Virus record (IMG/VR): IMGVR_UViG_3300047319_000386 | Span: 1-23,150 of that record | Length of the DNA stretch: 23,150 nucleotides | Source: a virus | Reading direction: 5' to 3' (one strand) | In this document: piece by piece, positions 3,523-18,716 of the stretch | Layout of the letters: every line of letters starts with the position of its first letter | Position numbering within the stretch: position 1 is the first letter of the stretch | Notes under the pieces: generated by a model | What the model saw: the letters and a program-made list of their open reading frames with translations, nothing else | Database searches by the model: none | Told to the model about the DNA's origin: nothing | Translations under genes and position numbers: made by a program

Positions 3523-4579
3523 CAGGGGATCTGACCTGAAGTACGGCCACGGGTCGGCGCTGTGGAAGTACTGGACCGCCGGCGAGGGTTTCGCGAAGTG
3601 GTCCGGGGCCGTCCACAAGTGGACGACCCTGCGGGACCTGCTGCTGAAGGCCGGCGTCCCGCCGCTCGACGCCGACGGGCTGACCACCAACATCATCACC
3701 GCGACAATGCCGGGCTACATGAAGCAGGCTCACGCGAAGGAGAGCAAGCACATGACGCACTTCGCCCCGGCCCTGGATGTGGTCCGCTCCGGCGGCGGCA
3801 TGGAGCTGCAGCCCGCCGAGGACGGCTCGCTGGGCACGCTGACCGGCCGGTTCTCCGAGTTCGGCCGCTGGTACCGGGTGTCGTCCAAGATGGAGGGTGA
3901 TTTCCTCGAGCGAGTCGCCCCGGGCGCGACCGCGGACACGATCCGCGACAACAGGGACTCGATGCGGGTCCTGTTCGACCACGGGATGGACGCCCAGATC
4001 GGCAACAAGGTCCTCGGCCCGATCGCGTCGCTGACTGAGCGCAGCGACGGCCCCCACTATGAGGTGCCGCTGTTCGACACCAGCTATAACCGGGACCTGC
4101 TGCCGGGCCTGAAGGCGGGCGTGTACGGGGCGTCGATGCGGATGCGGGTCACCGGCGACGAGTGGGATGACAAGCCGGCCCGGTCCGACGCGAACCCGGA
4201 CGGCCTGCCGGAGCGGACGATCACGGCGATGAAGGTGCTGGAGTTCGGCCCGGTGACGTTCCCGGCGAACCCCGGCGCGTCGGCCGGGATCCGGTCCGGC
4301 ACCGACGACTTCTATCACCGGCTGCGGCAGGTGGACGCCCCCGCGTTCGAGGACGCGCTGCGGGCGTGCGGCCTGTCCGCGGAACTCATCGAAGCCGGGG
4401 TCCGCTCCGGCTTGCCGCTAGAAGACTTCACCGGGCGGGACGGCGCGCGGAGCGCCCCCGGCGGTGACGAACCAGAAGATGACGTGCAGCCAGGAAACGG
4501 CGAGCCGTCGCCAGCCAACGGAAACCGGGCGGCCCTGCGGGGCCGCGCCTGGCGCATGAGGAGACAACCGTATGCCTGA
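3515..4579 (+). CDS. Prohead (capsid maturation) protease with N-terminal extension
   Basis: A serine protease of the HK97 prohead protease type, expected to cleave the scaffold-like N-terminal part of the capsid protein during head maturation. Its catalytic domain spans about residues 80-270, with His156 in LFDHGMDAQIGN and Ser207 in VYGASMRMRV, followed by VLEFGPVTFPANPGA. Residues 1-79 form a separate block beginning KYGHGSALWKYWTAGEGFAKW, a type seen in actinophages next to or fused to the protease. Residues 270-354 are a variable, charged, Pro-rich tail. The ATG at 3515 follows GGGAGGAG within the portal gene. A second in-frame ATG at 3752 has its own strong site and would give the protease alone. 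The 3' end overlaps the capsid gene by eight bases. Confidence 0.9.
   Translation: MADRGSDLKYGHGSALWKYWTAGEGFAKWSGAVHKWTTLRDLLLKAGVPPLDADGLTTNIITATMPGYMKQAHAKESKHMTHFAPALDVVRSGGGMELQPAEDGSLGTLTGRFSEFGRWYRVSSKMEGDFLERVAPGATADTIRDNRDSMRVLFDHGMDAQIGNKVLGPIASLTERSDGPHYEVPLFDTSYNRDLLPGLKAGVYGASMRMRVTGDEWDDKPARSDANPDGLPERTITAMKVLEFGPVTFPANPGASAGIRSGTDDFYHRLRQVDAPAFEDALRACGLSAELIEAGVRSGLPLEDFTGRDGARSAPGGDEPEDDVQPGNGEPSPANGNRAALRGRAWRMRRQPYA
3737..3754 (+). promoter_or_regulatory. Internal ribosome binding site and ATG inside the protease gene
   Basis: AAGGAG at 3737-3742 lies nine bases before an in-frame ATG at 3752-3754. The ATG falls at the junction between the N-terminal block and the protease domain (residue 80). 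Translation from here would give a protease of about 275 residues without the extension. The site is seen directly; its use is inferred. Confidence 0.4.
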
Positions 4580-6053
4580 GAAGAAGACCGAGGTGCAGGA
4601 GCCGTTCATGCCGGAGAGCATGGACGACCTCCGCGGCCGCACCCCCGACGAGCTCCGCAAGATGCTCGAGGTACTCGACGCGCACCTGAAGTCGCTGCAC
4701 CAGTCCGACGAGGGCGAGCTCCGCGACCTGTCCGACGAGGAGGAGTCCGCGTTCAACGTCGGGATGGACCTCCGCACCGAGATCGTGGAGCGGCTCGACA
4801 AGCACACGAAGATCGCCGAGGTGTTCCGCCGTCGCCCGGCCGTGGTGCAGCAGGCCATGGCCAACATCCGGTACGGCCTCGACGATCCCGCCGGGGACAC
4901 CCGCCGGCTCACCAACCCCGAGGCCCGCGACAAGGCGCTGCGGGTCCTGGACTCCCGCGACGCGTCCGACCTGTCCGACGCGCAGAAGACCCAGGTGGAG
5001 AAGATGCTCCGCCGGGACACGATCACCGCACGCCGCATCCTCGTCACCGAGAACGAGGACTACCGGACGGCGTGGATGAAGATGGTCACCGACGTCCACC
5101 CGGTCCTGACGCCGGAGGAGAACCGGGCCGTCCAGGCGTGGTACGAGTTCCGTGCTCTGGGTGACTGGACGACTACAGCGGGTGGTTTTGGCATCCCTGT
5201 TTTCATTGATCCTTCAATCATTTTGACCGCCCAGGAATCAGGCAATCCGTTCCTGTCGATCGCCAAGCAGGTCACCGTCAACACGAACCAGTGGAAAGGC
5301 GTCTCGTCTGCTGGTGTCACGTGGGCGTTCCAGACTGAAGCCGCGGCGGCCACGGACAACTCCCCGACCCTGGCGCAGCCCACCGTGCTCGTGCACATGG
5401 CCCGCGGGTTCATCCCCTACTCCATCGAGGTCGGGATGGACTACCCGGGGTTCGCCTCGGAGATGTCCACCCTGCTGGCGCAGGGGTACGACGAGCTACT
5501 GGTGAACAAGTTCACCATCGGGTCCGGCACCAACGAGCCGAAGGGCATCCTGACCGCGATCAGCGCGGTGTCCGGTGACCGGGTGAAGGTCACCACCGGC
5601 GGCAGCATCGGCGCCCCGGATCCGTACGCGGTGTGGAAGGCGCTGCCGCAGAAGTACCGGCGGAACGCGTCGTGGCTCATGTCCGTGGGCGTGAACAACG
5701 CGATCCGGCAGATCGGCGCGGCCAACGTGTTCCACGGCTACACGGTCAACCTGCCCGAGGGCTGGGCGGACCAGCTGTTCAACCGGCCCGTCTACGAGTC
5801 GGCGTACATGCCCGACACCACCACGTGGACCACCACCGCCGAGGGTCAGGCCATCGTCGGGGACTTCCAGAACTTCGTGGTGGCCCGGAACGGCGGCATG
5901 TCCGTCGAGCTGGTCCCGCAGCTGTTCCAGCAGGTCACGGCCGGCACCGGGCCGGCTGTCCCGACGGGACAGCGGGGCTGGTTTGCCTACGCACGTATCG
6001 GGTCCGATTCAAGCAACACCGCCGGGTTCCGCCTCCTCGTCGCGAACTCGTAA
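4572..6053 (+). CDS. Major capsid protein (HK97 fold) with N-terminal scaffold domain
   Basis: The main shell protein. Residues 1 to about 185 are highly charged and helical (TPDELRKMLEVLDAHL, later ARDKALRVLD) and look like the delta/scaffold domain that the upstream protease removes. The shell domain begins around AWYEFRALGDWTTTAGGFG (near residue 189). It continues with IPVFIDPSI, an MARGFIPYSIEVG segment, DELLVNKFTIGSGTNEPKGIL and ends FRLLVANS, all typical of HK97-fold capsids. The length of 493 residues suits a capsid with a fused scaffold. The ATG at 4572 lies within the protease gene. Codons at about 5159-5250 are unusually A/T-ending compared with the rest of the gene. The protein is expected to be among the most abundant products of the phage. 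Confidence 0.93.
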   Translation: MPEKKTEVQEPFMPESMDDLRGRTPDELRKMLEVLDAHLKSLHQSDEGELRDLSDEEESAFNVGMDLRTEIVERLDKHTKIAEVFRRRPAVVQQAMANIRYGLDDPAGDTRRLTNPEARDKALRVLDSRDASDLSDAQKTQVEKMLRRDTITARRILVTENEDYRTAWMKMVTDVHPVLTPEENRAVQAWYEFRALGDWTTTAGGFGIPVFIDPSIILTAQESGNPFLSIAKQVTVNTNQWKGVSSAGVTWAFQTEAAAATDNSPTLAQPTVLVHMARGFIPYSIEVGMDYPGFASEMSTLLAQGYDELLVNKFTIGSGTNEPKGILTAISAVSGDRVKVTTGGSIGAPDPYAVWKALPQKYRRNASWLMSVGVNNAIRQIGAANVFHGYTVNLPEGWADQLFNRPVYESAYMPDTTTWTTTAEGQAIVGDFQNFVVARNGGMSVELVPQLFQQVTAGTGPAVPTGQRGWFAYARIGSDSSNTAGFRLLVANS

Positions 6054-6502: not shown

Positions 6503-6739
6503 GTGGATGTCGTCTACGTGAAGTACAACGCTTTCGTGGCACCCCTGCACCGCGCCATCCACCAGGGTGAGCACTGGCCCGCCGATGACCCGGTGGTGAA
6601 GGCCATGCCGGACGCGTTCTCGCCGGACCCCCGCTACGGCGTGCAGTTCTCCGGCTCGCCGCCGCCGGAGCTGGCCGACCCGCCGGTGGAGCAGGCGACC
6701 GCCGGGCCGGGCGAGAAGCGGAACACGCGGCGTGGCTGA
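6503..6739 (+). CDS. Small hypothetical protein, head/neck region type
   Basis: A 78-residue protein. The first half (DVVYVKYNAFVAPLHRAIHQ) suggests short beta strands, followed by GEHWPADDPVVKAMPDAF. The last third is Pro/Gly-rich and charged. Proteins with a WxADDPVVxAxPxxF pattern lie after capsid genes in a number of actinophages and have no assigned function. The GTG at 6503 has GGGAGAAG at 6491-6498. It is the first gene after the hairpin, and its stop overlaps the glycosyltransferase start by eight bases, so it leads the sugar cassette transcriptionally although it resembles a head-module gene. Confidence 0.65.
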   Translation: MDVVYVKYNAFVAPLHRAIHQGEHWPADDPVVKAMPDAFSPDPRYGVQFSGSPPPELADPPVEQATAGPGEKRNTRRG

Positions 6740-8162
6740 CCCGGCAGCGGAGGGCCGTGACGGCGCGGTCGCCGTCGCCTACGTCTACAACGGCCACCAG
6801 GTCGCCTACTCCTGGCACCACTCGATGATCGAGCTGATCGGCTACGACCTGTGCCATGAGGGGCGGATCATCCGCGGCGGGTACGTCGCGATGAAATGCG
6901 GCACCGACGGCCTGGTCGACGCCCGGAACAAGGCCGTCCGGCTGTTCCTGAAGGAGAACCTGGCGGACTGGCTGTTCTGGATCGACACCGACATGGGGTT
7001 CGCCGCGGACACGGTGGAGCGGCTGCTGGCCGCCGCTGACCCCGTGGAGCGGCCCGTGGTCGGGGGGCTGGCGTTCACGCAGAAGGAAGAGGAATCCGAC
7101 GGGATGGGCGGGTGGCGGTGCCGCGCCGCCCCGACGGTGTTCGACTGGACCGTCCTGGACGACGGGCAGATGGGCTTCAGCGTGCGGTGGAAGTACCCGC
7201 CGGATCAGCTGGTGCAGGTCGCGGGGACCGGTGCGGCGTGCCTGCTGGTCCACCGCGGCGTATTCGAGCGGATCGAGGCCGAGTATGGCACCTGGTATGA
7301 CCGGGTGCCGAACACCACCACGAAACAGGTCGTGTCGGAAGACCTGTCCATGTGCCTGCGGGCCGGGGCGCTGGGCATCCCCGTCCACGTCCACACCGGG
7401 GTGCGGACGACGCACCAGAAGATCCTGTGGCTCGCGCAGGACGACTACTACGGGCAGGTCGCGCTGTCGCAGATCGCCCCGCCGGTCCCGCCGGCGACGG
7501 AGGAGACGGCGGTGATCGTCCCGGTGCTGCGCCGCCCGGGGAACGCGGCGCCGTTCATGGAGTCGCTCGCCGCGTCCGGTGCGCCGCTCGCCCGCGTCTA
7601 TGCGGTCGCCGACGCGGACGACACCGAAACCGCCGCCGCGTGGAAGGAAGCCGGGGCGCAGGTCCTGACCTGGCACGGGCCCAGCCCGGGGACGTTCGCG
7701 CAGAAGGTCAACGTCGGCTACCGGGCCACCGCCGAGCCGTGGCTGCTGCTCGCCGGCGACGACGTGAAGTTCCACCCCGGGTGGCTCGACCAGGCGCAGC
7801 ACGCCGCCCGCGACGGCGCCGACGTGATCGGCACCAACGACCTGCACAACCCGCGTGTCACCGCCGGAGAGCACTCGCCGCACCCGCTGGTCCGCCGCGC
7901 CTACATCGACGAGCAGGGCGCGTCCTGGGATGGCCCGGGCGTCGTGGCGCATGAGTCGTACCGCCATTGGTTTGTTGACGACGAGCTCGTGACGGCCGCG
8001 AAGCAGCGCGACACGTGGGCGGCGGCACCGCACTCCAAGGTCGAGCACCTGCACCCGCTGTGGGGCCTGGCCGCCGACGACGAGACGTACGCGCTGGGCC
8101 GTGAGCACATCGAGGCGGACAAGGCGCTGTTCGGGAAGCGGCTGGCCGAGCACAGTGCATGA
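6732..8162 (+). CDS. Two-domain glycosyltransferase (tandem GT-A folds)
   Basis: This protein is predicted to transfer sugars from nucleotide-sugar donors. It appears to hold two GT-A-type domains. The first (about residues 12-245) has DGLVDARNKAV, then WLFWIDTDMGF with the metal-binding DTD at 85-87, VAGTGAACLLVHRGVFERI, and a SED at 202-204. The second (about 258-470) starts VIVPVLRRPGNAAPF and has VYAVADADDTET, KVNVGYRATAEPWLLLAGDD with GDD at 342-344, and VEHLHPLWG near 437-445. There is no signal peptide or membrane segment, so it should act in the host cytoplasm. The GTG at 6732 overlaps the preceding gene by eight bases. Donor and acceptor cannot be read from sequence. Virion protein glycosylation is the favoured role because it lies between capsid and tail genes; DNA or cell-wall glycosylation are alternatives. 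Confidence 0.8.
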   Translation: MADPAAEGRDGAVAVAYVYNGHQVAYSWHHSMIELIGYDLCHEGRIIRGGYVAMKCGTDGLVDARNKAVRLFLKENLADWLFWIDTDMGFAADTVERLLAAADPVERPVVGGLAFTQKEEESDGMGGWRCRAAPTVFDWTVLDDGQMGFSVRWKYPPDQLVQVAGTGAACLLVHRGVFERIEAEYGTWYDRVPNTTTKQVVSEDLSMCLRAGALGIPVHVHTGVRTTHQKILWLAQDDYYGQVALSQIAPPVPPATEETAVIVPVLRRPGNAAPFMESLAASGAPLARVYAVADADDTETAAAWKEAGAQVLTWHGPSPGTFAQKVNVGYRATAEPWLLLAGDDVKFHPGWLDQAQHAARDGADVIGTNDLHNPRVTAGEHSPHPLVRRAYIDEQGASWDGPGVVAHESYRHWFVDDELVTAAKQRDTWAAAPHSKVEHLHPLWGLAADDETYALGREHIEADKALFGKRLAEHSA

Positions 8163-8658
8163 GCAGGCAATGGCGTGGATCGCCAAGTACGCCACCAGCG
8201 AGCCGGTGACGGTGCTGGACATCGGCGGGCGGGACGTGAACGGCTCCCCGCAGCAGCTGTTCCCCGCCGCCGCCGTCTACACGGTCCTGGACATCCGCCC
8301 CGGTGACGACGTGGATATCGTCGCGAACGCCGCGACATGGGACCCGGACGGGCAGCAGTGGGATCTGATCATCGCGGCCGAGACGTTCGAGCACACCGCG
8401 AGCTGGCGGGCGATCTGCCGCACCGCCTACGCGGCGTGCGCCCCCGGCGGCCGGCTCATCATCACCACGGCGGCGCCGGGACGCCCGCCGCATTCCGCGG
8501 TGGACGGGGAGTTCCGGCTGCTGCCCGGCGAGCATTACGCGAACATCCGCCCGGCCGAGCTCGAGCGGGTCCTGATAGAGGCGGGCTGGGCGGATGTGGT
8601 GGTGGACGTGCAGCCGTCCCCTGCGGATGTCCGCGCCGTCGCAGTGAGGCATAGCTGA
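8155..8658 (+). CDS. Class I SAM-dependent methyltransferase
   Basis: A compact Rossmann-fold methyltransferase of 167 residues. Motif I is VLDIGGRDVNG at about 20-30 and the acidic residue of motif II is in YTVLDIRPGDD. WDLIIAAETFEH at about 69-80 resembles the methyltransferase-11 type, followed by CAPGGRLIITTAAPG. Small enzymes like this often methylate sugars or small molecules. Given its place directly after the glycosyltransferase, modification of a transferred sugar or of a virion protein is likely. The GTG at 8155 is chosen because it overlaps the upstream stop by eight bases and keeps motif I near the N-terminus. Earlier in-frame codons from 8101 lie inside the glycosyltransferase gene and give an arginine-rich, unlikely extension. 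ATG 8170 is an alternative start. Confidence 0.8.
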   Translation: MHEQAMAWIAKYATSEPVTVLDIGGRDVNGSPQQLFPAAAVYTVLDIRPGDDVDIVANAATWDPDGQQWDLIIAAETFEHTASWRAICRTAYAACAPGGRLIITTAAPGRPPHSAVDGEFRLLPGEHYANIRPAELERVLIEAGWADVVVDVQPSPADVRAVAVRHS

Positions 8659-9188
8659 TGCACCTGCCCTGGCGTGACATGCCGCCCGCGGCGGGCACCC
8701 CGGCAATCTCCACGTCGCTTACCGGGGCAGAGGCGGCGGCCCTGGCCCGGCTCGCGGCCGGCCGGGACGTGCTCGAGGTCGGGTCGGCGTTCGGGTTCTC
8801 CGCGTGCGTGATGGCGCTGGCCGGGGCCCGGCACGTGACCGCGGTCGACCCGCACACCTGGCTGGACTCCCACGAGGCGATGGTGTCGAACCTGGCCGTG
8901 ACCGGGGTGGCCGGCCAGGTGACGATCATCCGCGACTGGTCCCCGGCCGCCCTGGACGGGCTCGGCCCGTTCGGGCTGGCGTTCATCGACGGCGACCACG
9001 GCGCGGCCGCTGTCATGGCGGACGTGGAAGCGGCCCGGAAGGTGCTGGCCACGGGCGGGGTGCTGGCCTGCCATGACCTCGGGGAGGACTGCTGCTGTCC
9101 GGGTGTGCGGCAGGCGCTCGAGGCGCTGTTCCCCGCCGGCCCGTCAGAGCTGGTCGACACGCTGGCCATCTACCGGGAGGTCGCGTGA
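8658..9188 (+). CDS. Class I SAM-dependent methyltransferase (methyltransferase-24 type)
   Basis: A second Rossmann methyltransferase of 176 residues, not closely similar to its neighbour. SAM-binding motif I is VLEVGSAFGFSACVMAL at 38-54. The ribose-binding acid is Asp64 in TAVDPHTWLD. A metal or substrate site is suggested by AFIDGDHGAAAVMADVE (109-123) and CHDLGEDCCCPGV (138-150). IDGDH plus HD is the pattern of methyltransferase-24 and cephalosporin hydroxylase-like O-methyltransferases, several of which act on sugars. The ATG at 8658 shares one base with the previous stop (TGATG), showing translational coupling. The run of three cysteines is unusual. Substrate unknown; a sugar hydroxyl is the best guess. 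Confidence 0.82.
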   Translation: MHLPWRDMPPAAGTPAISTSLTGAEAAALARLAAGRDVLEVGSAFGFSACVMALAGARHVTAVDPHTWLDSHEAMVSNLAVTGVAGQVTIIRDWSPAALDGLGPFGLAFIDGDHGAAAVMADVEAARKVLATGGVLACHDLGEDCCCPGVRQALEALFPAGPSELVDTLAIYREVA

Positions 9189-10054
9189 AAGTCCTGGTCA
9201 CCGGGTCGTCCGGGTTCATCGGTCAGCACCTGTGCGCGGAGCTGGAGGCGCGCGGCCATGCGGTCGTCGCGTTCGACCGGCCGCAGGGGGACGTCCGCAT
9301 CCCCGCCCGGCTCGATCTCGCGTGCCGCACATCCGGGGCTGAGGCGGTCATCAACCTGGCCGGGGTCCTGGGCACCCCGGAACTGCTCGGGTCCGAACGT
9401 GCCGCCGCGGAGGTCAACATCCTCGGCGCGGTCGGCGTGTACGACGTCGCGGCGAAGCTCGGCATCCCGGTGGTGCAGATCGGCACCGGGCACAAAGGGC
9501 AGCCGAACCCCTACGCGATCACGAAGGCCTGCGCGGAGGACCTGGGGCTGGCCCGGGCGCGGTGGCTCGGCGAGAAGGTCACCGTCGTGCGGGCGTACCA
9601 CGTGTACGGCCCGGGCCAGCTCCCAGGCCCTCCGCACGGCCCGGCGAGCGTGCACAAGTTCTTCCCGACGTTCGCGTGCCGCGCGCTGAACGGGCTGCCG
9701 CTGGAACTGTGCGGCGGCGGCGGGCAGCTCATCGACCCCGTGCACGTCTCAGACGTGGCCGCAGTCCTCGCCGACGCGATCGGCGGCCCCTACGGGCAGG
9801 TCACGGAGGCGGGGTGCGGGAAGCCCGTCAGCGTGGCGCAGGCAGCCGGGGACATTGCGCTGGCGGCCCCGGACCTGACGCTCGAGGCGGCAGCGAGGCA
9901 CCCGTGGAAGGAACGCATCATCGACGCACCGGGCCGGCCGGGTGAGCCACATGACGCCGAGGTGGTCGCCGCGGCACCCGCGTGCCGGAACCCGTGGCCC
10001 TATCTCGTCCCCGAGACAGTGGAGTGGTACCGGCAGTGGCTGACCCGCTCGTAA
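9185..10054 (+). CDS. NAD-dependent sugar epimerase/dehydratase (extended SDR)
   Basis: A nucleotide-sugar-modifying enzyme of the extended short-chain dehydrogenase family, 289 residues. The cofactor-binding GSSGFIG lies at 7-13 within KVLVTGSSGFIG, with Asp31 ending the second strand, which suggests NAD. NLAG is at 57-60. The catalytic pair is Tyr110 and Lys114 in NPYAITKACAEDLG, and VVRAYHVYGPGQ marks the substrate-facing loop. LIDPVHVSDVAAVLADAI is the typical C-terminal element. It probably epimerises or dehydrates an NDP-sugar that feeds the neighbouring glycosyltransferases; the exact sugar cannot be told. The GTG at 9185 overlaps the upstream TGA and follows GGGAGG at 9175-9180. The stop overlaps the next gene. 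Phages rarely carry this enzyme inside the structural module. Confidence 0.88.
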   Translation: MKVLVTGSSGFIGQHLCAELEARGHAVVAFDRPQGDVRIPARLDLACRTSGAEAVINLAGVLGTPELLGSERAAAEVNILGAVGVYDVAAKLGIPVVQIGTGHKGQPNPYAITKACAEDLGLARARWLGEKVTVVRAYHVYGPGQLPGPPHGPASVHKFFPTFACRALNGLPLELCGGGGQLIDPVHVSDVAAVLADAIGGPYGQVTEAGCGKPVSVAQAAGDIALAAPDLTLEAAARHPWKERIIDAPGRPGEPHDAEVVAAAPACRNPWPYLVPETVEWYRQWLTRS

Positions 10055-10629
10055 CCGTCATCACGCCGACGTGGCAGCGGCACGAACTACTGCTGCACCG
10101 GGCTATTCCGTCGGTCGCCGCCCAGGACTACCCGGCCCTGGAGCATGTGGTCGTGTCCGACGGGCCGGACGAGGCGCTGCGGGAAGAGTTCGCCGCGCGG
10201 CCGGGAGTGCGGTTCGCTGAGCTCCCGGAGCATGACCCGGAGGCGCAGTGGGGGCATCACGCCCGGCTGCACGCCCTCGACCTGGCCAAAGGCGACTACA
10301 TCGCCTACCACGACGATGACAACTCCTGGCACTCCTACCACGTGCGGCTCCTGGTCAGGGCGCTGGAGGAGACCGGCGCGGACTTCGCCTACCCGCTGAT
10401 GGCGGTCCACGGCCGCGGCGAGTACGTCATCGGCTCGGACCCGCCGGCGGAAGGCCAGATCGACACATCCATGATCGTCCACCGCCGCGGCCTCCTCGAC
10501 GTGGCCACCTGGCGGTGGTACCCGGGCATCCCGACGATCGACTGGGACCTGGTGTCACGGTGGATCGCCGCCGGGGCCACCTGGACACGCGTCAACGCGG
10601 TGACCTGCGACTACTACTTTCACGGCTGA
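10036..10629 (+). CDS. GT2-family glycosyltransferase
   Basis: A single-domain GT-A glycosyltransferase of 197 residues. The N-terminus, PLVTVITPTWQRHELLLHRA, is the nucleotide-binding start of family 2. SVAAQDYPALEHVVVSDGPD follows, and the metal-binding DXD lies in AYHDDDNSWH at 91-99. It is shorter than many GT2 enzymes and ends shortly after DWDLVSRWIAAGATW. The GTG at 10036 is chosen because it puts the first strand at the N-terminus and overlaps the epimerase stop by 19 bases. An ATG at 9982 in the same frame would add 18 residues encoded inside the epimerase gene. It is the last gene of the coupled sugar cassette. There is no membrane segment, so a soluble cytoplasmic enzyme is expected. 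Confidence 0.85.
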   Translation: MADPLVTVITPTWQRHELLLHRAIPSVAAQDYPALEHVVVSDGPDEALREEFAARPGVRFAELPEHDPEAQWGHHARLHALDLAKGDYIAYHDDDNSWHSYHVRLLVRALEETGADFAYPLMAVHGRGEYVIGSDPPAEGQIDTSMIVHRRGLLDVATWRWYPGIPTIDWDLVSRWIAAGATWTRVNAVTCDYYFHG

Positions 10630-10642
10630 GAGGGGTGACCGG

Positions 10643-10963
10643 ATGCTGGTGCCGCTGCTGACCGCGATGACGGACTGGTACTGCCCCAACTGCGGCATCA
10701 CCCTGACCGCCCCCGAGCCGCCGCCGGGGCAGTCCAAGTTCCACGTGTGCGGGTCGCTGCACGGGCTGACCGCCCCCCTGATCCGGGCGGGGGTCCGGTG
10801 CAAGGTCGAGGCCGAGGAACGGCAGGACTACCTCGGCCGCGAGATCCAGGCGGCGGGCGACGACGGCAAGCCGTACATGGCGGTCCGGACCACCCGCGAT
10901 GACGGGTGCGACCTGGCGGTCAACGCCGGGCTCGCGCAGGCGAGATTGGGAGATTACCGGTGA
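10643..10963 (+). CDS. Small zinc-ribbon-like conserved phage protein
   Basis: A 106-residue protein with a probable zinc site near the N-terminus: Cys14 and Cys17 in WYCPNCGITL, then Cys36 and His40 in FHVCGSLHGLTAPL. The rest contains RCKVEAEERQDYLG and GKPYMAVRTTRDDGCDLAV. Proteins of this pattern recur in the head-to-tail region of actinophages and have no established role. A zinc ribbon could bind nucleic acid or simply stabilise a structural protein. The ATG at 10643 follows GAGGGGTGA at 10630-10638. Its last bases overlap the start of the 33-codon ORF downstream. Confidence 0.72.
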   Translation: MLVPLLTAMTDWYCPNCGITLTAPEPPPGQSKFHVCGSLHGLTAPLIRAGVRCKVEAEERQDYLGREIQAAGDDGKPYMAVRTTRDDGCDLAVNAGLAQARLGDYR

Positions 10964-11064: not shown

Positions 11065-11589
11065 ATGGCATTCGGCGCTACCTCCGCGATCTTCCAGCAG
11101 GCGATGCTGAACCCGATCATGGGCAGGCTGTGGACGACGGCCGCGCCCACCACGTTCGCGAACCTGAGCGCGGACACGGTGAACGCGGCGCTGTTCAACA
11201 ACACCACCACCCCGGACAAGACCGCCGCGGTCGGGTCGACCGGGTTCAACACGGGCGTGTGGATCACCGCCAACGAGGTCACCGACGCCACCAACTGGGT
11301 CAGCGGCGGGCGGCCGCTGGCATCCAAGGCGTTCAGCATCGACACCGGCTCCTCGTCCGTCTGCTTCCAGGCCGCGGCGACCGCCGGGGCGGGGAACGTC
11401 ACCATCGCCAACGCCTACGGCTGCCTCGTCTACGATTCCACGATCACCGCCGGGACGGTCGCCAAGCAGGCCATGTGCTACAACTCGTTCGGCGGCGCCG
11501 CCCAGGGGGTCACTGCCGGGACCTTCACGATCCTTTGGGCGACCGTGGGGGCGCTGACCAACGTCGTCGTGTTCAACGTCACCGTCTGA
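11065..11589 (+). CDS. Putative virion structural protein (174 residues)
   Basis: A Thr/Ala/Ser/Val-rich protein without charged clusters, looking like an all-beta virion protein. Features are FNTGVWITANEVTDATNW, KAFSIDTGSSSVCFQAAA, ANAYGCLVYDSTI and a final TFTILWATVGALTNVVVFNVTV-type strand pair. Similar proteins sit among minor tail or surface proteins of actinophages, to my recollection, but no enzyme signature is present. The ATG at 11065 is three bases after the short acidic ORF. It opens a run of five putative surface genes ending at 16268. Whether these attach to the capsid or the tail is not shown; their place upstream of the head-tail adaptor leaves both open. Confidence 0.65.
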   Translation: MAFGATSAIFQQAMLNPIMGRLWTTAAPTTFANLSADTVNAALFNNTTTPDKTAAVGSTGFNTGVWITANEVTDATNWVSGGRPLASKAFSIDTGSSSVCFQAAATAGAGNVTIANAYGCLVYDSTITAGTVAKQAMCYNSFGGAAQGVTAGTFTILWATVGALTNVVVFNVTV

Positions 11590-11595
11590 CCTGCG

Positions 11596-12930
11596 ATGCC
11601 GTTCCTCACCGGGAAGGCCGGGTCCGGCACCGGGTCCTACCTGACGGATGAGAACGGCAACCCGTACCTGCTCCGCGGGGACACCATCTGGGCGCTGCCG
11701 GTCATGGCGGGGTCGGCGGGCGGGGCGGTGACCTGGCAGTCCGACATCGACGCGTACACCTCGACCCGCGCGGCGCAGGGGTTCAACGCCCTGTACATCG
11801 CGGCTGTCAGCACCAGCAACTACAGCGTCGGCGCGACCAACGTCAACGGGAACACGTGGGACGGCGTGTCACCGTTTACCGGCGGGGACCCGGGCAGCCT
11901 GAATAATACGTACTGGCAGCGGGTCGACTACATCATGGCGTCGGCGGCGGCGCAGGGCATGACGGTGCTGTTCAACCTGATCCCGTCCTATGCCGTGGAG
12001 AACGCCGGCGGGCCGCTGAACGGGAAGGTGGCCGCCGATTTCACCAACCTCGGCACCGCGCTGGGCAACCGGTACAAGACCGCGCCGAACCTGGCGTGGT
12101 TCATCGGCGACGACTATTTCGATGATAAGCAGAGCCTGTACGGCGCGGCGGTCGCGGCGATCAAGGCGACCGGCGACACGCACCTGTTCTCGCAGGAGAA
12201 CTACTCGGAGTCCACCAGCCGCACGGACATGCACAGCCACGCCGCGCTGCCCACCAACGGCGCGAATGTGGATTTCAACTTCGGCTACAGCTACAACGTG
12301 GGATATCTCGCTATCGAGGATGGCTGGCTGGAGTCGACCCCGATCCCGGTGATCCACGGCGACGGGATCTATGACACCGACTCGGCGCCGGACCTGCACC
12401 GGAACCTGCTGTGGTGGTACCTGTCGTCGGGGGCGCGGGGGGTCATCTACGGGCGGGAGGCGATCTGGTCGTGGCCGGCGACCGCGCTGGCGGCGCTGAC
12501 GACCAACTTCGTTGACAACACCCTGTGCGGCGCCGTGTTCAACGCGTTCGCCGGGCTGAACAACTGGCACAAGCTGGTCCCGGACACCACCAGCGCGCTG
12601 GTCACCGCCGGGCGCGGCACGCACGCCGCGGAGTTCACGTCCGGCGGCGGCGGCGGGCAGTACACCAGCGGCAACACGTACGTGTCCGCGTCGGTCACGG
12701 CGGATAAGACCCTGGCCGTGATCTACATCCCGTCGAACGTGACGATCACGGTGAACGGCGGGGCGATGCTGGCCGGGTTCGGCGCGAAGTGGATGGACCC
12801 GTTCACCGGGGCGACGTCGGTGGCGACGATCGCGTCGACGTTCAGCAATGCGGCCGCCAACTCCGGCGGCACCCACGACTGGGTGCTGGTGCTCGCCACC
12901 CCGCCGTACGCCACCTGGACCGTCCCGTGA
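11596..12930 (+). CDS. Apiosidase-like glycoside hydrolase (DUF4038) with C-terminal beta domain
   Basis: A 444-residue enzyme resembling the DUF4038/GH140 group: a TIM-barrel glycosidase followed by a collagen-binding-type beta domain. The barrel (about 12-330) begins SYLTDENGNPYLLRGDTIWAL and has AAQGFNALYIAAV, WQRVDYIMASAAAQGMTVLF, LGNRYKTAPNLAWFIGDDYF, then IPVIHGDGIYDTD, and LLWWYLSSGARGVIYG. The C-terminal domain (about 330-440) contains LVTAGRGTHAAEF, LAVIYIPSNVTITV, KWMDPFTGAT and HDWVLVLATP. The family usually shows a Glu in the strand equivalent to VIHGDGIYD; here Asp stands there, so the catalytic acid may differ. No secretion signal is present, so delivery as part of the virion is likely. 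It probably cleaves a cell-surface or host-produced glycan. Confidence 0.8.
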   Translation: MPFLTGKAGSGTGSYLTDENGNPYLLRGDTIWALPVMAGSAGGAVTWQSDIDAYTSTRAAQGFNALYIAAVSTSNYSVGATNVNGNTWDGVSPFTGGDPGSLNNTYWQRVDYIMASAAAQGMTVLFNLIPSYAVENAGGPLNGKVAADFTNLGTALGNRYKTAPNLAWFIGDDYFDDKQSLYGAAVAAIKATGDTHLFSQENYSESTSRTDMHSHAALPTNGANVDFNFGYSYNVGYLAIEDGWLESTPIPVIHGDGIYDTDSAPDLHRNLLWWYLSSGARGVIYGREAIWSWPATALAALTTNFVDNTLCGAVFNAFAGLNNWHKLVPDTTSALVTAGRGTHAAEFTSGGGGGQYTSGNTYVSASVTADKTLAVIYIPSNVTITVNGGAMLAGFGAKWMDPFTGATSVATIASTFSNAAANSGGTHDWVLVLATPPYATWTVP

Positions 12931-12939
12931 GGTGCCGCC

Positions 12940-13761
12940 GTGGCCGTCGGGTTTGACGCGGTAGGCCCGTCCTCATCCGGCGGCAGCAGCACCAGCGCCA
13001 CGACGGTGACGTGGGCGCACACGATCACCGGGTCCAGCACCGTCCTGATTGCCGGGTGCGCGCTGGACGCCGGCTCCGACGCCGGGTTCTCCATGACGGC
13101 GACGTACAACAGCGTGGCGATGACGGCGCTCGGCAGCGCCGTCCACTCCGGCGGCATCACGGCCGGGTTCCTGCAGGTGTGGGGCATCATCGCCGCCGCC
13201 GGGGCAGCCCATAACGTGGTGGTCACCGCGGCCGGGGGCACGCCGGCGGGGCTGTCCGGCGGGTCGCTGTCGTTCACCGGCGCCGGGCAGACCATCGGGG
13301 CCGCGTTCGGCACCCCGGCGACCGCGAACACCCCGGCGCCCACCACCACCCCGTCCGCGGCGCTGGCGGCGAACACCAGCGGCAACATCATCGCCGGGTT
13401 CTGCTGCTCCGGGTCCGGGTTCACCTCGGCCACGGCCCCGTCGACGTCGCGGTTCATCGGCGGGTCGGGTTTCACCGGCGCGGCCGGGCAGAGCGCGGGA
13501 GCGACCAGCCCGTCCACCGGGTCCTCGGTGACGATGGCGTGGCTGACCGGCTCCGACGACTTCGCCGAGATCCTGGTTGAGATCCTGGCCGCCGCGTCGG
13601 GCATCCCGACCGGGCTGGCGTCCGGGACCGGCGCGGCCCTGAACCCGGCGATCGTGACCAGCACCGTGACAGTCGGCCCCCGGTACGCGGGCACCGGCAC
13701 CGACCTGGGCGGCGTGTACGGATCGTGGGGAACCCCGCAGCTCGCGTCCGGCGGGCCCTGA
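12940..13761 (+). CDS. Putative virion surface protein with one copy of the downstream repeat
   Basis: A 273-residue Gly/Ser/Thr/Ala-rich protein. Residues 1 to about 218 look like one all-beta domain (TTVTWAHTITGSSTVLIAGC near the start, TMAWLTGSDDFAEILVEILA near the end), a pattern seen in phage fibre and surface proteins. Residues 225-247 read GLASGTGAALNPAIVTSTVT, which is one unit of the repeat that fills the 614-residue protein further on. A Gly-rich end (AGTGTDLGGVYGSWG) follows. The GTG at 12940 has GAGGTG at 12929-12934. No enzyme motif is seen. Confidence 0.62.
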   Translation: MAVGFDAVGPSSSGGSSTSATTVTWAHTITGSSTVLIAGCALDAGSDAGFSMTATYNSVAMTALGSAVHSGGITAGFLQVWGIIAAAGAAHNVVVTAAGGTPAGLSGGSLSFTGAGQTIGAAFGTPATANTPAPTTTPSAALAANTSGNIIAGFCCSGSGFTSATAPSTSRFIGGSGFTGAAGQSAGATSPSTGSSVTMAWLTGSDDFAEILVEILAAASGIPTGLASGTGAALNPAIVTSTVTVGPRYAGTGTDLGGVYGSWGTPQLASGGP

Positions 13762-13776
13762 CAACAAGGAGAGGCG

Positions 13777-14403
13777 TTGGCTAACCAGAACTGGGGCAAC
13801 ATCCTGATCCCCGCCCAGACCGTGTGGTCCGGGGCGGGCACGGCCCTGAGCACGGCCACCACCGCGACGATCAGCCCCCGGCCGACCCCGAACACCGCCG
13901 ACTACAACGCGTTCGTCCCGGCCGGCGGGTTCTACCCGGGCATGCTGATCGCGGTCGTAGCACGCGGGTTCGTCACCACCACCACCACCTCGACGACGCT
14001 GACGTTCTTCCTGGCGTCCAACATCGGGAACACCGGTACCACCTACGTGACGCTCGCGACCACCGGCGGGATCAGCACCGGCACCACCGCGATGACCGGC
14101 ATCCAGTGGAAGCTGGAAGCGCTGATCCGGTGCACGGCGGTCGCCACGTCCGGGACGCTCGCCACCCAGGGCGAGTTCGGGTTCTACGGCCTGCTGGCCT
14201 CCGGCGCCGCGCTGGCCGCGAACCCGCAGGCCCTGACCACCGGCACCAGCATCGGCAACGCGTTCCCGCTGCCCGCCATATCCGGTGAGACCACGGCGAC
14301 CGTCGACACGACCCAGACGCAGGGGATCGCGCTGCGGGCCACCCTCGCCGGGGCGAACGCCACCGTCCAGTGCACCCAGTGGCTGCCCACGCAGCTCAAC
14401 TAG
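13777..14403 (+). CDS. Putative virion structural protein (208 residues)
   Basis: A Thr-rich (over a short stretch TTTTTSTTLTFF), probably all-beta protein. The N-terminus ANQNWGNILIPAQTVWSG is followed by AFVPAGGFYPGMLIAVVARG, GIQWKLEALIRC and a C-terminal GIALRATLAGANATVQCTQW. Even strand spacing and lack of charge suggest a jelly-roll or fibre-head-like domain, but no family can be named. The TTG at 13777 has an excellent AAGGAGAGG at 13766-13774. It lies 15 bases after the preceding gene and 20 before the repeat protein gene. A surface or fibre role is inferred from neighbours only. Confidence 0.62.
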   Translation: MANQNWGNILIPAQTVWSGAGTALSTATTATISPRPTPNTADYNAFVPAGGFYPGMLIAVVARGFVTTTTTSTTLTFFLASNIGNTGTTYVTLATTGGISTGTTAMTGIQWKLEALIRCTAVATSGTLATQGEFGFYGLLASGAALAANPQALTTGTSIGNAFPLPAISGETTATVDTTQTQGIALRATLAGANATVQCTQWLPTQLN

Positions 14404-14423: not shown

Positions 14424-16268
14424 ATGCCGGTGCCCGTCTGGTTTCCCCGGCGGCCCGCACCGGTACCCCCGGGGCGGACAGGCCCTAACGAGTTCAGGTG
14501 GCGCGGCGGCACCCCGCCCGGCCCGTCCCGCATCGCCGAATACTCCACCGCGCTGGAACTGTCCGCCTTCGGGTCATGGACGGGCGTCAGTCCCGGCGAC
14601 ACGATCAACTCGGTTACCGTCACCGTCAGCCAGTTCCAGTCCAGCCCGCTGATGGGCGCCCCGACGATCGAGTTGTGGGACTTCAGCGGGTCCGGGTCCC
14701 TGATCGGCTCCGGACTCGGCGCGAAAACCACGGCCTCCGCCAACATCGACTCGCTGACCTTCACGAACGTCACGTACGCCCAGCTGGCCACGCTGCGCGT
14801 ACGCATCTACGCCAACCAGGGCACCGCCGCCTCCGGCGCGGTCCAGAACGTCAACTGGGCCGGCCTGTACGTCAGCCTGACCCCGGCGGCCGGCGCGGCC
14901 GGGCTGGCGCACGGCACCGGCGCGGCGCAGAACGCGACGGTCACCACCAACACGAACGTCTCCGCCGTCCTCGCCGCCGGGACCGGCACCGCGCAGTCCC
15001 CGGCCGTCACGACCGCCGCCGCGGTCACCGCGGCCCTGCCGTCCGGGACCGGGGCAGCGCTCAACGCCACCGCCCAGACGGCCGCCGGCACCACCGCTAG
15101 TGCCGTCCTGGCCACGGGGACCGGGGCGGCACCGAACCCGGCCGCAACGGCGGTGTCCGCACCCGCCGCCACCCTGGCCGCAGGGACCGGCGCCGCGCTC
15201 AACCCGGCCGTCACCGCCACGGCATCACCCGCCGCGGCCCTGGCCAGCGGGACCGGCGCCGCCAGTTCTCCCGCCGTCACCGCCGCAGCGTCCGTCATCG
15301 CAGTGGCCGCGGCCGGAACCGGCGCGGCCTGGTCCCCCGCGGCCACCTCAGCGGCCAGCGCCGGGGCGGTCCTCCCGTCCGGCGCGGGCGCGGCGCTCAA
15401 CGCCGCCGCCAGCACCACGTCATCGGGGAGCGCCGCCGCCACCCTGGCCAGCGGGACCGGCGCCGCGCTCAACCCGGCCGTCACCGCCACGGCACAGGTC
15501 ACCGCCGTCCTGGCCGCCGGAACCGGGACAGCGCAGAACCCGGCGGCCGCCCCCGGCGTCACTGCCGCCCTGGCCGCCGGGACCGGCGCGGCGCAGAACC
15601 CCGCCGTCACCACGGCCGCGTCCGTCACGGCGGTCCTCGCGTCCGGGACCGGCGCCGCGCTGAACGCCACGGTCAGCACCTCCTCGTCCGGCACCGCCGC
15701 CGCCACCCTGGCCGCCGCCGCGGGAACCGCCCAGAGCCCCGCTGCGGCCATCGGGGCGGCAGCGGGCACCGCTGCCGGCACAGGCACCGCGCTGAACGCC
15801 ACGGTCAGCACGGCCGCGTTCACCAATGCTTCCGCCGGGCTCGCCACCGGGACAGGCGCCGCGCTCAACGCGGGCCTGACCCTCGCCGCGATCATCCCCG
15901 CCGCGGCCGCCACCGGAACCGGCGCCGCGGGGCAGGCCACCCCGGGGACCGGCGTCCGCGCCGCGGCAGCCACCGCCGCAGGCACCGCGCAAGGCGCCTC
16001 ACGCGCAGCCGCCGCCGGGCTCGCCACCGGAGCCGGCGCAGCCCAGAACGCGGCCGCGGCCCTCGCGGTCACCGCCCATGCCGCCGCGGCGCAGGCCCTC
16101 GGCGCGGCGCTGGGTGTCACCATCCCGCCACCGCCGCCCGTCTACGGCACCGCCCGGCAGGCCGCCATGGCCATCCCCGCCGCGGCCGCCGCCGGAACGC
16201 CCGCTCTCGCGTACGCCGCGGCCGGGCAGATGTCCCTACCGCACGCCGAGGGAGGCCAGTACCCATGA
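14424..16268 (+). CDS. Large repeat protein, putative fibre or surface glycoprotein
   Basis: A 614-residue protein in three parts. Residues 1-33 are Pro/Arg-rich. Residues 34-153 form a beta-sandwich-like domain (TINSVTVTVSQFQ, APTIELWDFSGSG, LATLRVRIYANQ, WAGLYVSLTP). Residues from about 160 to 560 are some eighteen degenerate repeats of about 22 residues with the core LAaGTGAALNPAVTtaAsvtA. The C-terminus has PPPPPVYGTARQAAMAIP. The array is almost entirely Ala, Thr, Gly, Ser, Val, Asn and Pro with no charge, like a mucin-type or fibre shaft. Regular length and Gly-Thr-Gly turns would suit a beta-solenoid or trimeric shaft. The many Thr/Ser make it a candidate target for the phage glycosyltransferases. 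The stop overlaps the adaptor ATG (ATGA). Confidence 0.75.
   Translation: MPVPVWFPRRPAPVPPGRTGPNEFRWRGGTPPGPSRIAEYSTALELSAFGSWTGVSPGDTINSVTVTVSQFQSSPLMGAPTIELWDFSGSGSLIGSGLGAKTTASANIDSLTFTNVTYAQLATLRVRIYANQGTAASGAVQNVNWAGLYVSLTPAAGAAGLAHGTGAAQNATVTTNTNVSAVLAAGTGTAQSPAVTTAAAVTAALPSGTGAALNATAQTAAGTTASAVLATGTGAAPNPAATAVSAPAATLAAGTGAALNPAVTATASPAAALASGTGAASSPAVTAAASVIAVAAAGTGAAWSPAATSAASAGAVLPSGAGAALNAAASTTSSGSAAATLASGTGAALNPAVTATAQVTAVLAAGTGTAQNPAAAPGVTAALAAGTGAAQNPAVTTAASVTAVLASGTGAALNATVSTSSSGTAAATLAAAAGTAQSPAAAIGAAAGTAAGTGTALNATVSTAAFTNASAGLATGTGAALNAGLTLAAIIPAAAATGTGAAGQATPGTGVRAAAATAAGTAQGASRAAAAGLATGAGAAQNAAAALAVTAHAAAAQALGAALGVTIPPPPPVYGTARQAAMAIPAAAAAGTPALAYAAAGQMSLPHAEGGQYP
14904..16100 (+). 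repeat. Array of about eighteen degenerate ~66-bp coding repeats
   Basis: Each unit encodes about 22 residues around GTGAA(L/Q)NPAV. Most copies have diverged, but some are near-identical at DNA level: the 42 bases at 15183-15224 recur exactly at 15453-15494. This shows recent duplication or gene conversion within the array. Unit length varies from about 16 to 24 residues, by whole codons. Arrays like this change copy number easily and can be mis-assembled from short reads. Confidence 0.85.
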
Positions 16269-17113
16269 TCAGCGCAGGCGGCATGTACCCCATCGCGTTC
16301 GACGTCCTCGACGCCACCGGGGCCCTCACCCACGCCGCGTCCGTCACCCTCACGATCACGCTGCCCGACGGGACCACCGCAACCCCCGCCATCACCGACG
16401 CGACGGTTACCGGGCAGTACCGGCTCGCCTACCAGACGACCATCGCGGGCCGGTACACCGCCCACGCCGTCACCACCGGGCCCGTCACGTCCTGGGACGA
16501 CGAGTTTGACGCCGCCCCCACGCCCTGGCCCGCCATGGTGTCCCTCAACGACGCCAAGGGCCAGCTCAACATGGACGTCGCCGACCACCGGTTCGACGAC
16601 GAGCTGCGGGACTTCATCGCCTCCGCCACCGGCGCCGCCGAGCTGTACAAGCACGAGGTCATCGTCCGCCGCACCGTGACCGACGAGCTCGACCTGTGGT
16701 CCCAGGGCGGCTACGGCTACGGGTGGGGATACGGGCGGCGGCAGCAGAAATTCTGGCTCCGGTCCGCCCCCGTCATCTCCCTGACCTCCGTCGTCGCGTG
16801 GGACGGCTCGGTCACCTGGGACGTCACCCAGATGCGGGCCAGCCCGTCCGGGCTCGTCAAGGTCATGGGCGGCCTCCCAGTCTCCGGCCTCGCCGACATC
16901 ACCTACATCGCCGGGTACCAGGTAATCCCCGCCCACTACAAGCGGGGTGCGCTGGTCATACTGGCTCATCTCTGGGAGACGCAAAGAGGTCCGGGCACGG
17001 CCGCGTCCGGCGTGATCGGCTCCGAGGAGCACTGGCGTCAGCCCGGCGAGTTTTTCTCGGTTCCGGACAAAGCCAAAGAGCTTTTGGGACCGCCCCGCCC
17101 GGTGATGGCCTGA
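16265..17113 (+). CDS. Head-tail adaptor (gp6-like connector) with N-terminal Ig-like domain
   Basis: The adaptor that docks under the portal to form the neck. Residues from about 88 to 282 fit the HK97 gp6/phage connector type: VSLNDAKGQLNM, DDELRDFIASATGAAELY, an aromatic-rich loop (GYGYGWGYGRRQ), TDITYIAGY-like ADITYIAGYQVIPAHYKRG, LVILAHLWETQRG, and a tail with FFSVPDKAKELLG. Residues 1-85 form an extra beta-rich Ig-like domain (VTLTITLPDGTTATPAITD, GQYRLAYQTTIAGRYTAHA), which the family usually lacks and which is probably exposed. The ATG at 16265 overlaps the repeat gene stop. The adaptor normally lies soon after the capsid gene; here about 10 kb separates them. Codons near 16919-17100 are less GC-ending than upstream. 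Confidence 0.82.
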   Translation: MISAGGMYPIAFDVLDATGALTHAASVTLTITLPDGTTATPAITDATVTGQYRLAYQTTIAGRYTAHAVTTGPVTSWDDEFDAAPTPWPAMVSLNDAKGQLNMDVADHRFDDELRDFIASATGAAELYKHEVIVRRTVTDELDLWSQGGYGYGWGYGRRQQKFWLRSAPVISLTSVVAWDGSVTWDVTQMRASPSGLVKVMGGLPVSGLADITYIAGYQVIPAHYKRGALVILAHLWETQRGPGTAASGVIGSEEHWRQPGEFFSVPDKAKELLGPPRPVMA

Positions 17114-17611: not shown

Positions 17612-17654
17612 ACAGGGTCCACGTAAGCCGTCACCTTCCATGCCCTGGAGTGTA

Positions 17655-18716
17655 ATGCGCTGGCTGCTCATCCACCCCGGGCCGTCCTGGTCCGTGGCTG
17701 ACGTTTTCAACGGCTGGTCAGAGGCCCTGACCGGGCTCGGCGAGACGGTCGAGGAATACCCGCTCGACGCGGCCCTGCGGTTCTATAACAACGCGCTCGC
17801 CGAAACCGGGCAGGTCCGGCCGTGCGGCTGCCGTGAGGTGCGGAAATACCTCGACCGCGACCAGGCCAGCCGCCTCGCCCTCGACCCGATCCTCGCCGCC
17901 GCGAACCGGTTCTGGCCCGACGTGATCCTGTGCACCTCCGCGTTCTTCCTGCAGCCGTGGCTCCTGGAGATCCTCCGCGACCGCGGCCACAAGATCATCG
18001 TGATCTTCACGGAAAGCCCGTACCAGGACGACTACCAGCTGAAAGTCGCGGAGTACGCGGACCTGAGCCTCCTTAACGACCCGGTCAACATCGACGCCTA
18101 CCGGCAGGTCGGCCCCGCCGAGTACATGCCCCAGGCGTACCGGGAGACGGTCCACTACCCGCCGCCGTTCGGCGCCGAGCCGGAATACGACTTCGCGTTC
18201 GTCGGGACCGGGTTCCCCAGCCGCGTCCGGTTCTTCGACCAGATGGACCTGGCCGGGCTGAACGTCCGGCTGGGCGGCCTGTGGATGGACCTCCCCGAGG
18301 ACTCCCCGCTGCGCGACTGGACGGCCATCACCGACGACACCGGTGACTGCGTCGACAACCCCGAGGTCGCCGGGATCTACCGGCGGGCCCGGACCGGGAT
18401 CAACTTCTACCGGCGCGAAGCCGAAGACGGCCACGAAGGCGAAGGGTGGGCCGTCGGACCCCGGGAGATCGAGATGGCCGCGTCCGGGCTGTGGTTCGCG
18501 CGGGACCCGCGGCCGGAATCCGACGAGCTGTTCCCGATGCTGCCCGCCTTCAGCAGCCCGGACGAAGCCGGGGACCTCATCCGGTGGGCGCTCGCCCACC
18601 CCGCCGAACGCGCCGAGGCGGCGCTGAAAGCCCGCGCTGCGATCGCGGGCCGCACGTTCACCGAGCACGCCAAGCAGCTGCTCCGGTTGCTCGACCGGCA
18701 GCCCGTCAACATGTAG
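17655..18716 (+). CDS. CgeB-like glycosyltransferase (GT-B type)
   Basis: A 353-residue protein of the CgeB/glycosyltransferase-1 type, unlike the GT-A enzymes upstream. The first half has MRWLLIHPGPSWSVADV, WPDVILCTSAFFLQPWLLEIL, and KIIVIFTESPYQDDYQL. The second half has YDFAFVGTGFPSRVRFFD, IYRRARTGINFYRREAEDG, and GPREIEMAASGLWFARDPRP. The last of these is the donor-binding region of glycosyltransferase-1 domains, where Glu grips the ribose. It ends with a helical FTEHAKQLLRLLD. The ATG at 17655 is preferred because GGAG sits at 17647-17650 and the protein then starts with its first strand; ATG 17640 would add five residues and has no site. It stands alone, 12 bases before the tail tube gene, which makes tail-protein glycosylation its likeliest role. 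Confidence 0.82.
   Translation: MRWLLIHPGPSWSVADVFNGWSEALTGLGETVEEYPLDAALRFYNNALAETGQVRPCGCREVRKYLDRDQASRLALDPILAAANRFWPDVILCTSAFFLQPWLLEILRDRGHKIIVIFTESPYQDDYQLKVAEYADLSLLNDPVNIDAYRQVGPAEYMPQAYRETVHYPPPFGAEPEYDFAFVGTGFPSRVRFFDQMDLAGLNVRLGGLWMDLPEDSPLRDWTAITDDTGDCVDNPEVAGIYRRARTGINFYRREAEDGHEGEGWAVGPREIEMAASGLWFARDPRPESDELFPMLPAFSSPDEAGDLIRWALAHPAERAEAALKARAAIAGRTFTEHAKQLLRLLDRQPVNM

Follow-up and report, generated by a model that had tools for sequence, protein, structure and literature searches.

The locus studied here raises the question of what a long, highly repetitive protein encoded among the virion genes of a phage might be for. The initial annotation of this DNA proposed a mucin-like repeat protein serving either as a fibre shaft or as the acceptor for glycans made by nearby enzymes, which would together form a self-contained glycoprotein system. 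The window, that is, the whole stretch of 23,150 bases from IMG/VR that was analysed, carries a siphovirus structural operon comprising terminase, portal, protease, capsid, head-tail adaptor, major tail protein and tape measure. Between the major capsid protein (4572..6053, +), whose nearest named proteins come from Gordonia phages with ~39% identity, and the head-tail adaptor (16265..17113, +; phrog_442) lies an inserted module of which these two genes form the left and right edges, and in which sugar genes are followed by fibre genes including that of the repeat protein. We argue below that the repeat protein is probably a component of a virion surface fibre, in which a long uncharged β-shaft stands behind a jelly-roll-like domain.

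The repeat protein gene (14424..16268, +; stop codon counted), which starts with an ATG at 14424, encodes a 614-aa protein that is 100% identical across contigs L002-L004. A Pro/Arg-rich N-terminal lead (residues 1-35; 14424..14528, +), resembling the linkers found ahead of domains in fused relatives, is followed by a β-sandwich domain (residues ~36-155; 14529..14888, +), an array of tandem repeats (residues 159-550; 14898..16073, +) and an Ala/Pro-rich C-terminal end (16074..16265, +). For the N-terminal domain, AlphaFold2 (AF2) agrees with the sandwich that had been annotated ahead of the repeats, drawing seven strands in a jelly-roll-like arrangement, at modest confidence (block pLDDT 35-76). 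The same domain (alignment A1) is found in L007, L008 and L009 with 59-77% identity to the window sequence. Several relatives' repeat proteins (L007, L008, L028 and L043) share an FTxGxLTA...TGGPx motif at their end, after otherwise differing arrays, and this motif is possibly an attachment end.

The array consists of 18 units with a modal length of 22 residues (range 18-24), in line with the initial annotation, and is not a product of chance since its chain-EM score is 215 when shuffles reach at most 117, and since TRF detects a 66-nt period across 15160-15611. In the typical unit, AVLAAGTGTAQSPAVTTAAAVT, Ala at position 1, Gly at position 8 and Ala at position 10 never vary, and Ala at position 4 and Gly at position 6 hardly do. 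Residues 158-560 are composed of 39.7% Ala, 15.6% Thr, 12.4% Gly and 7.2% Ser, and merely 2 of these 403 residues are charged. The reported absence of charge is thus borne out, but not the supposed richness in Asn, which amounts to only 3.7%.

The length of the units bears on the structure of the array. The inter-unit spacings are, in order, 22, 22, 24, 22, 22, 22, 22, 24, 22, 20, 22, 24, 20, 24, 22, 20 and 18, all 17 of which are even. Across 18 arrays, most of them gathered via linked glycosidase genes, with limits set by eye and with related arrays not counting as independent, 253 of 281 spacings are even. Among the non-modal spacings, 100 are even and 28 odd, versus 163:142 in synthetic repeats with free indels of 1-2 residues, and the ratio for all spacings of shuffled arrays is 850:767. 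This even-length rule is common to arrays with unrelated consensus sequences. Moreover, residues in the window array occupy alternate positions over ~390 residues (Leu 24:0, Asn 15:0 and Gly 46:3), which is the in/out alternation that characterizes a β-structured fibre shaft; in four other arrays (L008, L059, L063 and L067), residue parity is within the range of their own shuffles. The even spacings and the alternation of Leu, Gly and Asn therefore point to a continuous β-structure with two alternating faces and argue against a disordered mucin. A flexible, disordered Ala/Gly/Thr/Pro linker tethering domains would suit the low-complexity composition, the mean pLDDT of 47 obtained by AF2 with a shallow alignment and the complete change of sequence between phages, but it would need neither even units nor strict alternation over such a length, and we consider it unlikely. 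A collagen-like fibre of the SPP1 gp12 type was rejected, as Gly does not recur at every third residue and the autocorrelation of the array peaks at 22 and 24, with no peak at 3; Pfam collagen also gave no match for the repeat protein. On sequence grounds, the even-length rule and the alternation fit neither collagen nor a disordered chain.

The number of units is labile. In the near-identical L006 (3219-4793), the DNA of which is otherwise 96-99% identical, the protein has 524 aa as compared with 614 aa in the window, exactly four units (270 nt) having been lost in frame via an exchange inside a 42-nt exact repeat. While this difference may be an assembly collapse, an in-frame loss of four units implies that shaft length can vary. 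The same lability is what one would expect if the repeats were a neutral expansion via slippage in GC-rich DNA, with no selected structure, but since arrays of unrelated consensus obey the even-length rule, this explanation is extremely unlikely.

Structure prediction adds comparatively little to the case for a β-shaft. The first AF2 model, made with the shallow alignment, was too weak for a fold search to have meaning. With a deeper alignment, AF2 produced a monomer model with ~3 short strands per unit, recurring in each unit, in which most of the array has a pLDDT of ~60-80. Foldseek with this better model returned four weak viral matches and no PDB match below E 0.01, and a PDB sequence search with the repeat protein found no homolog of solved structure. 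When the model is superposed on phage tailspikes and GH87 β-helices, Z is ~9-10, values that are uninformative for repeats according to the tool (Z < ~13). Were this superposition taken at face value, the repeat protein could itself be a β-helical tailspike-type depolymerase; this is very unlikely, however, because the model is possibly an artefact and because repeats with so few charged residues would hold no acidic catalytic set. As AF2 is known to over-predict β-solenoids for repeats, generating models that are confident yet unrealistic (PMC11795689), we gave the solenoid model little weight. The parity result does not depend on it.

The genes upstream of the repeat protein outline the rest of the fibre module. 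They encode a conserved 174-aa companion protein (11065..11589, +), an apiosidase/DUF4038-like glycoside hydrolase (11596..12930, +), a jelly-roll-like virion protein (12940..13761, +) with one copy of the repeat unit (PTGLASGTGAALNPAIVTS) near its C terminus, and a 208-aa companion protein rich in Ser/Thr (13777..14403, +). The glycosidase matches PDB entries 8t9w, 3kzs and 4qfu in profile searches over ~280 residues, with E values from 5e-17 to 8e-23. In alignment A4, the phage proteins have an Asp (Asn in L029) where the canonical 'pviDGEpiY' ('GE') motif has its Glu, so that glycosidase activity may be altered. Between the sugar and fibre genes, many loci (including L009, L021, L023, L039, L043 and L058) encode a 106-aa protein (10643-10963 in the window) with a zinc-ribbon-like CxxC...C pattern.

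Relatives of this module provide the main argument that its products act together. A profile of the glycosidase retrieved ~50 viral loci, and in many of these soil-phage relatives (L021, L023, L027, L028 and others) the jelly-roll domain, apiosidase-like glycosidase and repeat array, encoded by separate genes in the window, are fused in one polypeptide of 800-1400 aa. L043 has a homologous operon order, with the sandwich domain and the array encoded by separate genes that follow each other as their counterparts do in the window. Array sequences differ among phages, as exemplified by AGLAAGTGTAQPPGAQVTAS, VTQIAPAAAAGAGAVTAV and AAGSVAFTGTAVGVDRAVGQ. In fused fibre proteins (L021, L023, L060 and L075), each domain or array is preceded by a Trp/Arg-rich linker of the form PGxxxWRRxFRR or WRKxFQHPQQ. 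Beyond this soil-phage group, hardly any cultured-phage relatives of the fibre proteins were found. INPHARED, searched by tblastn, yielded no match for the repeat protein, its N-terminal domain or the 12940 protein, nor for the proteins of L058 and L023; the glycosidase gave one weak match, to an unannotated gut phage, and L067 three weak matches. Pfam and PHROGs contain no family for the repeat protein, and a search of genome contigs with the N-terminal domain gave no match. A host assignment from the closest genome matches, Streptosporangiaceae MAGs L078 and L080, was rejected because these matches lie outside phage structural operons.

Gene position bears on where such a fibre would sit. 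The repeat gene lies within the capsid-to-connector interval, where a head fibre or decoration protein would be encoded. In relatives, minor-tail proteins, including one weak Dit match, are encoded downstream of the tape measure, and the fibre block is therefore not the usual tail-tip cluster. Judged by gene position, the assembled fibre may be located at or close to the capsid and not at the tail tip.

As for the sugar enzymes, the initial annotation was right that they are close by. The window encodes two GT2-type glycosyltransferases (6732..8162, + and 9982..10629, +), an NAD-dependent sugar epimerase/dehydratase (9185..10054, +), two methyltransferases (8101-8658 and at 8658) and, past the adaptor, a CgeB-like glycosyltransferase (Glyco_trans_1_2; 17640..18716, +). 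With the GTG at 8101 as its start codon, the methyltransferase gene 8101-8658 would share 62 bases with the first GT2 gene. In most loci covering the interval, glycosyltransferases are linked between the capsid and fibre genes, and GT2, GT4-like and Glyco_trans_1_2 types swap at the equivalent operon position (6732-10629 in the window) among related phages. We dropped the idea that a glycosyltransferase is not obligatory, as L043 has a divergent GT_6732-like gene at the usual place and the remaining cases (L063 and L067) are only incomplete contigs. The linkage of sugar machinery is real and conserved, yet it is a property of the virion operon as a whole and is not specific to the repeat protein. 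Since glycosyltransferases accompany the module in most loci, and since capsid and tail-tube proteins of mycobacteriophages reportedly receive sugars from phage-encoded enzymes (PMC12363180, citing Freeman 2023), some virion glycosylation is plausible.

Whether the array is the dedicated acceptor, with phage glycosyltransferases decorating its Ser/Thr residues to make a self-contained mucin-like glycoprotein, is a different matter. Such a role could draw on the GT2, GT4 or CgeB-like genes that share the operon in most loci, on the mycobacteriophage precedent just mentioned and on unit position 7, the best Ser/Thr position, which is Thr in 14 of the 18 units and Ala otherwise. However, Ser and Thr make up ~23% (22.8%) of the array, no more than in its neighbours (26.7% in the 12940 protein and 25.5% in the 13777 protein); neither face of the alternation is enriched, both containing 23.5%; and Ala dominates, the invariant positions being Ala or Gly. 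Nor is Ser/Thr content kept in related arrays, where it falls to 14-18% in some, and others gain charge, turning Pro-, Arg- or acid-rich. Finally, the glycosyltransferases adjoin the capsid gene too, so the capsid or tail tube would be an equally good acceptor. We therefore judge a dedicated acceptor to be rather unlikely. In short, of the two functions first proposed for this protein, that of acceptor finds no support in the sequence, whereas that of fibre shaft is supported indirectly by operon position, fused relatives, the even-length rule with its alternation and, weakly, AF2.

How might the fibre shaft work? After the N-terminal jelly-roll-like domain, the 18 repeats would fold as a continuous β-structure, one face of which would be lined by the near-invariant small residues Ala4, Gly6, Gly8 and Ala10, and the other by Leu3 and variable residues. 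Because each unit has an even residue count, the two alternating faces would never slip. The shaft would act as a length-adjustable spacer and, together with the separate jelly-roll protein and the apiosidase-like glycosidase, would hold carbohydrate-active domains off the particle. A broader generalization, which is possible although we would put it forward only tentatively, is that modular β-shafts of a class unseen in cultured phages are common to uncultivated soil phages. In such shafts any repeat sequence would be tolerated provided that units are even, shafts differing in sequence and length could be exchanged behind jelly-roll and glycosidase heads, and glycosyltransferases may modify the fibre. 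If true, the even-length rule would be a mark of β-fibre shafts readable from sequence alone, testable across phage genomes where alignment fails, and would distinguish shafts with a defined structure from repeats that are disordered or mucin-like. The module also brings a glycosidase of the virion operon together with jelly-roll domains and sugar-transfer genes in one soil-phage group.

Among known fibres, the triple β-spiral shafts of adenovirus and reovirus are likewise repeat-built β-shafts joined to globular domains. They show no sequence match to the window array, the units of which are 18-24 residues long and strictly even. The likeness to tailspikes and depolymerases (P22, LKA1, AP22 and Klebsiella phages) is confined to the AF2 superposition, the Z of ~9-10 being uninformative; there is no sequence relation, and the window repeats are almost uncharged. 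In the mycobacteriophages Che8, Corndog and Myrna, phage-encoded glycosyltransferases act on virion proteins, the reported acceptors being the capsid and tail-tube proteins. A further comparison is with the head fibres and capsid spikes of SPP1 (gp12) and phi29 (gp8.5) and the capsid fibres of phage 7-7-1, surface fibres that are thought to aid cell attachment (PMC7602432; PMC12796354). For SPP1 gp12 a collagen-like fold is predicted, and gp8.5 of phi29 forms a helical coiled coil; by sequence, the window array is neither. Like these head fibres, however, the window repeat gene adjoins capsid genes and, with capsid binding putative here, its position suggests that the repeat protein is possibly a head fibre like those of SPP1 and phi29.
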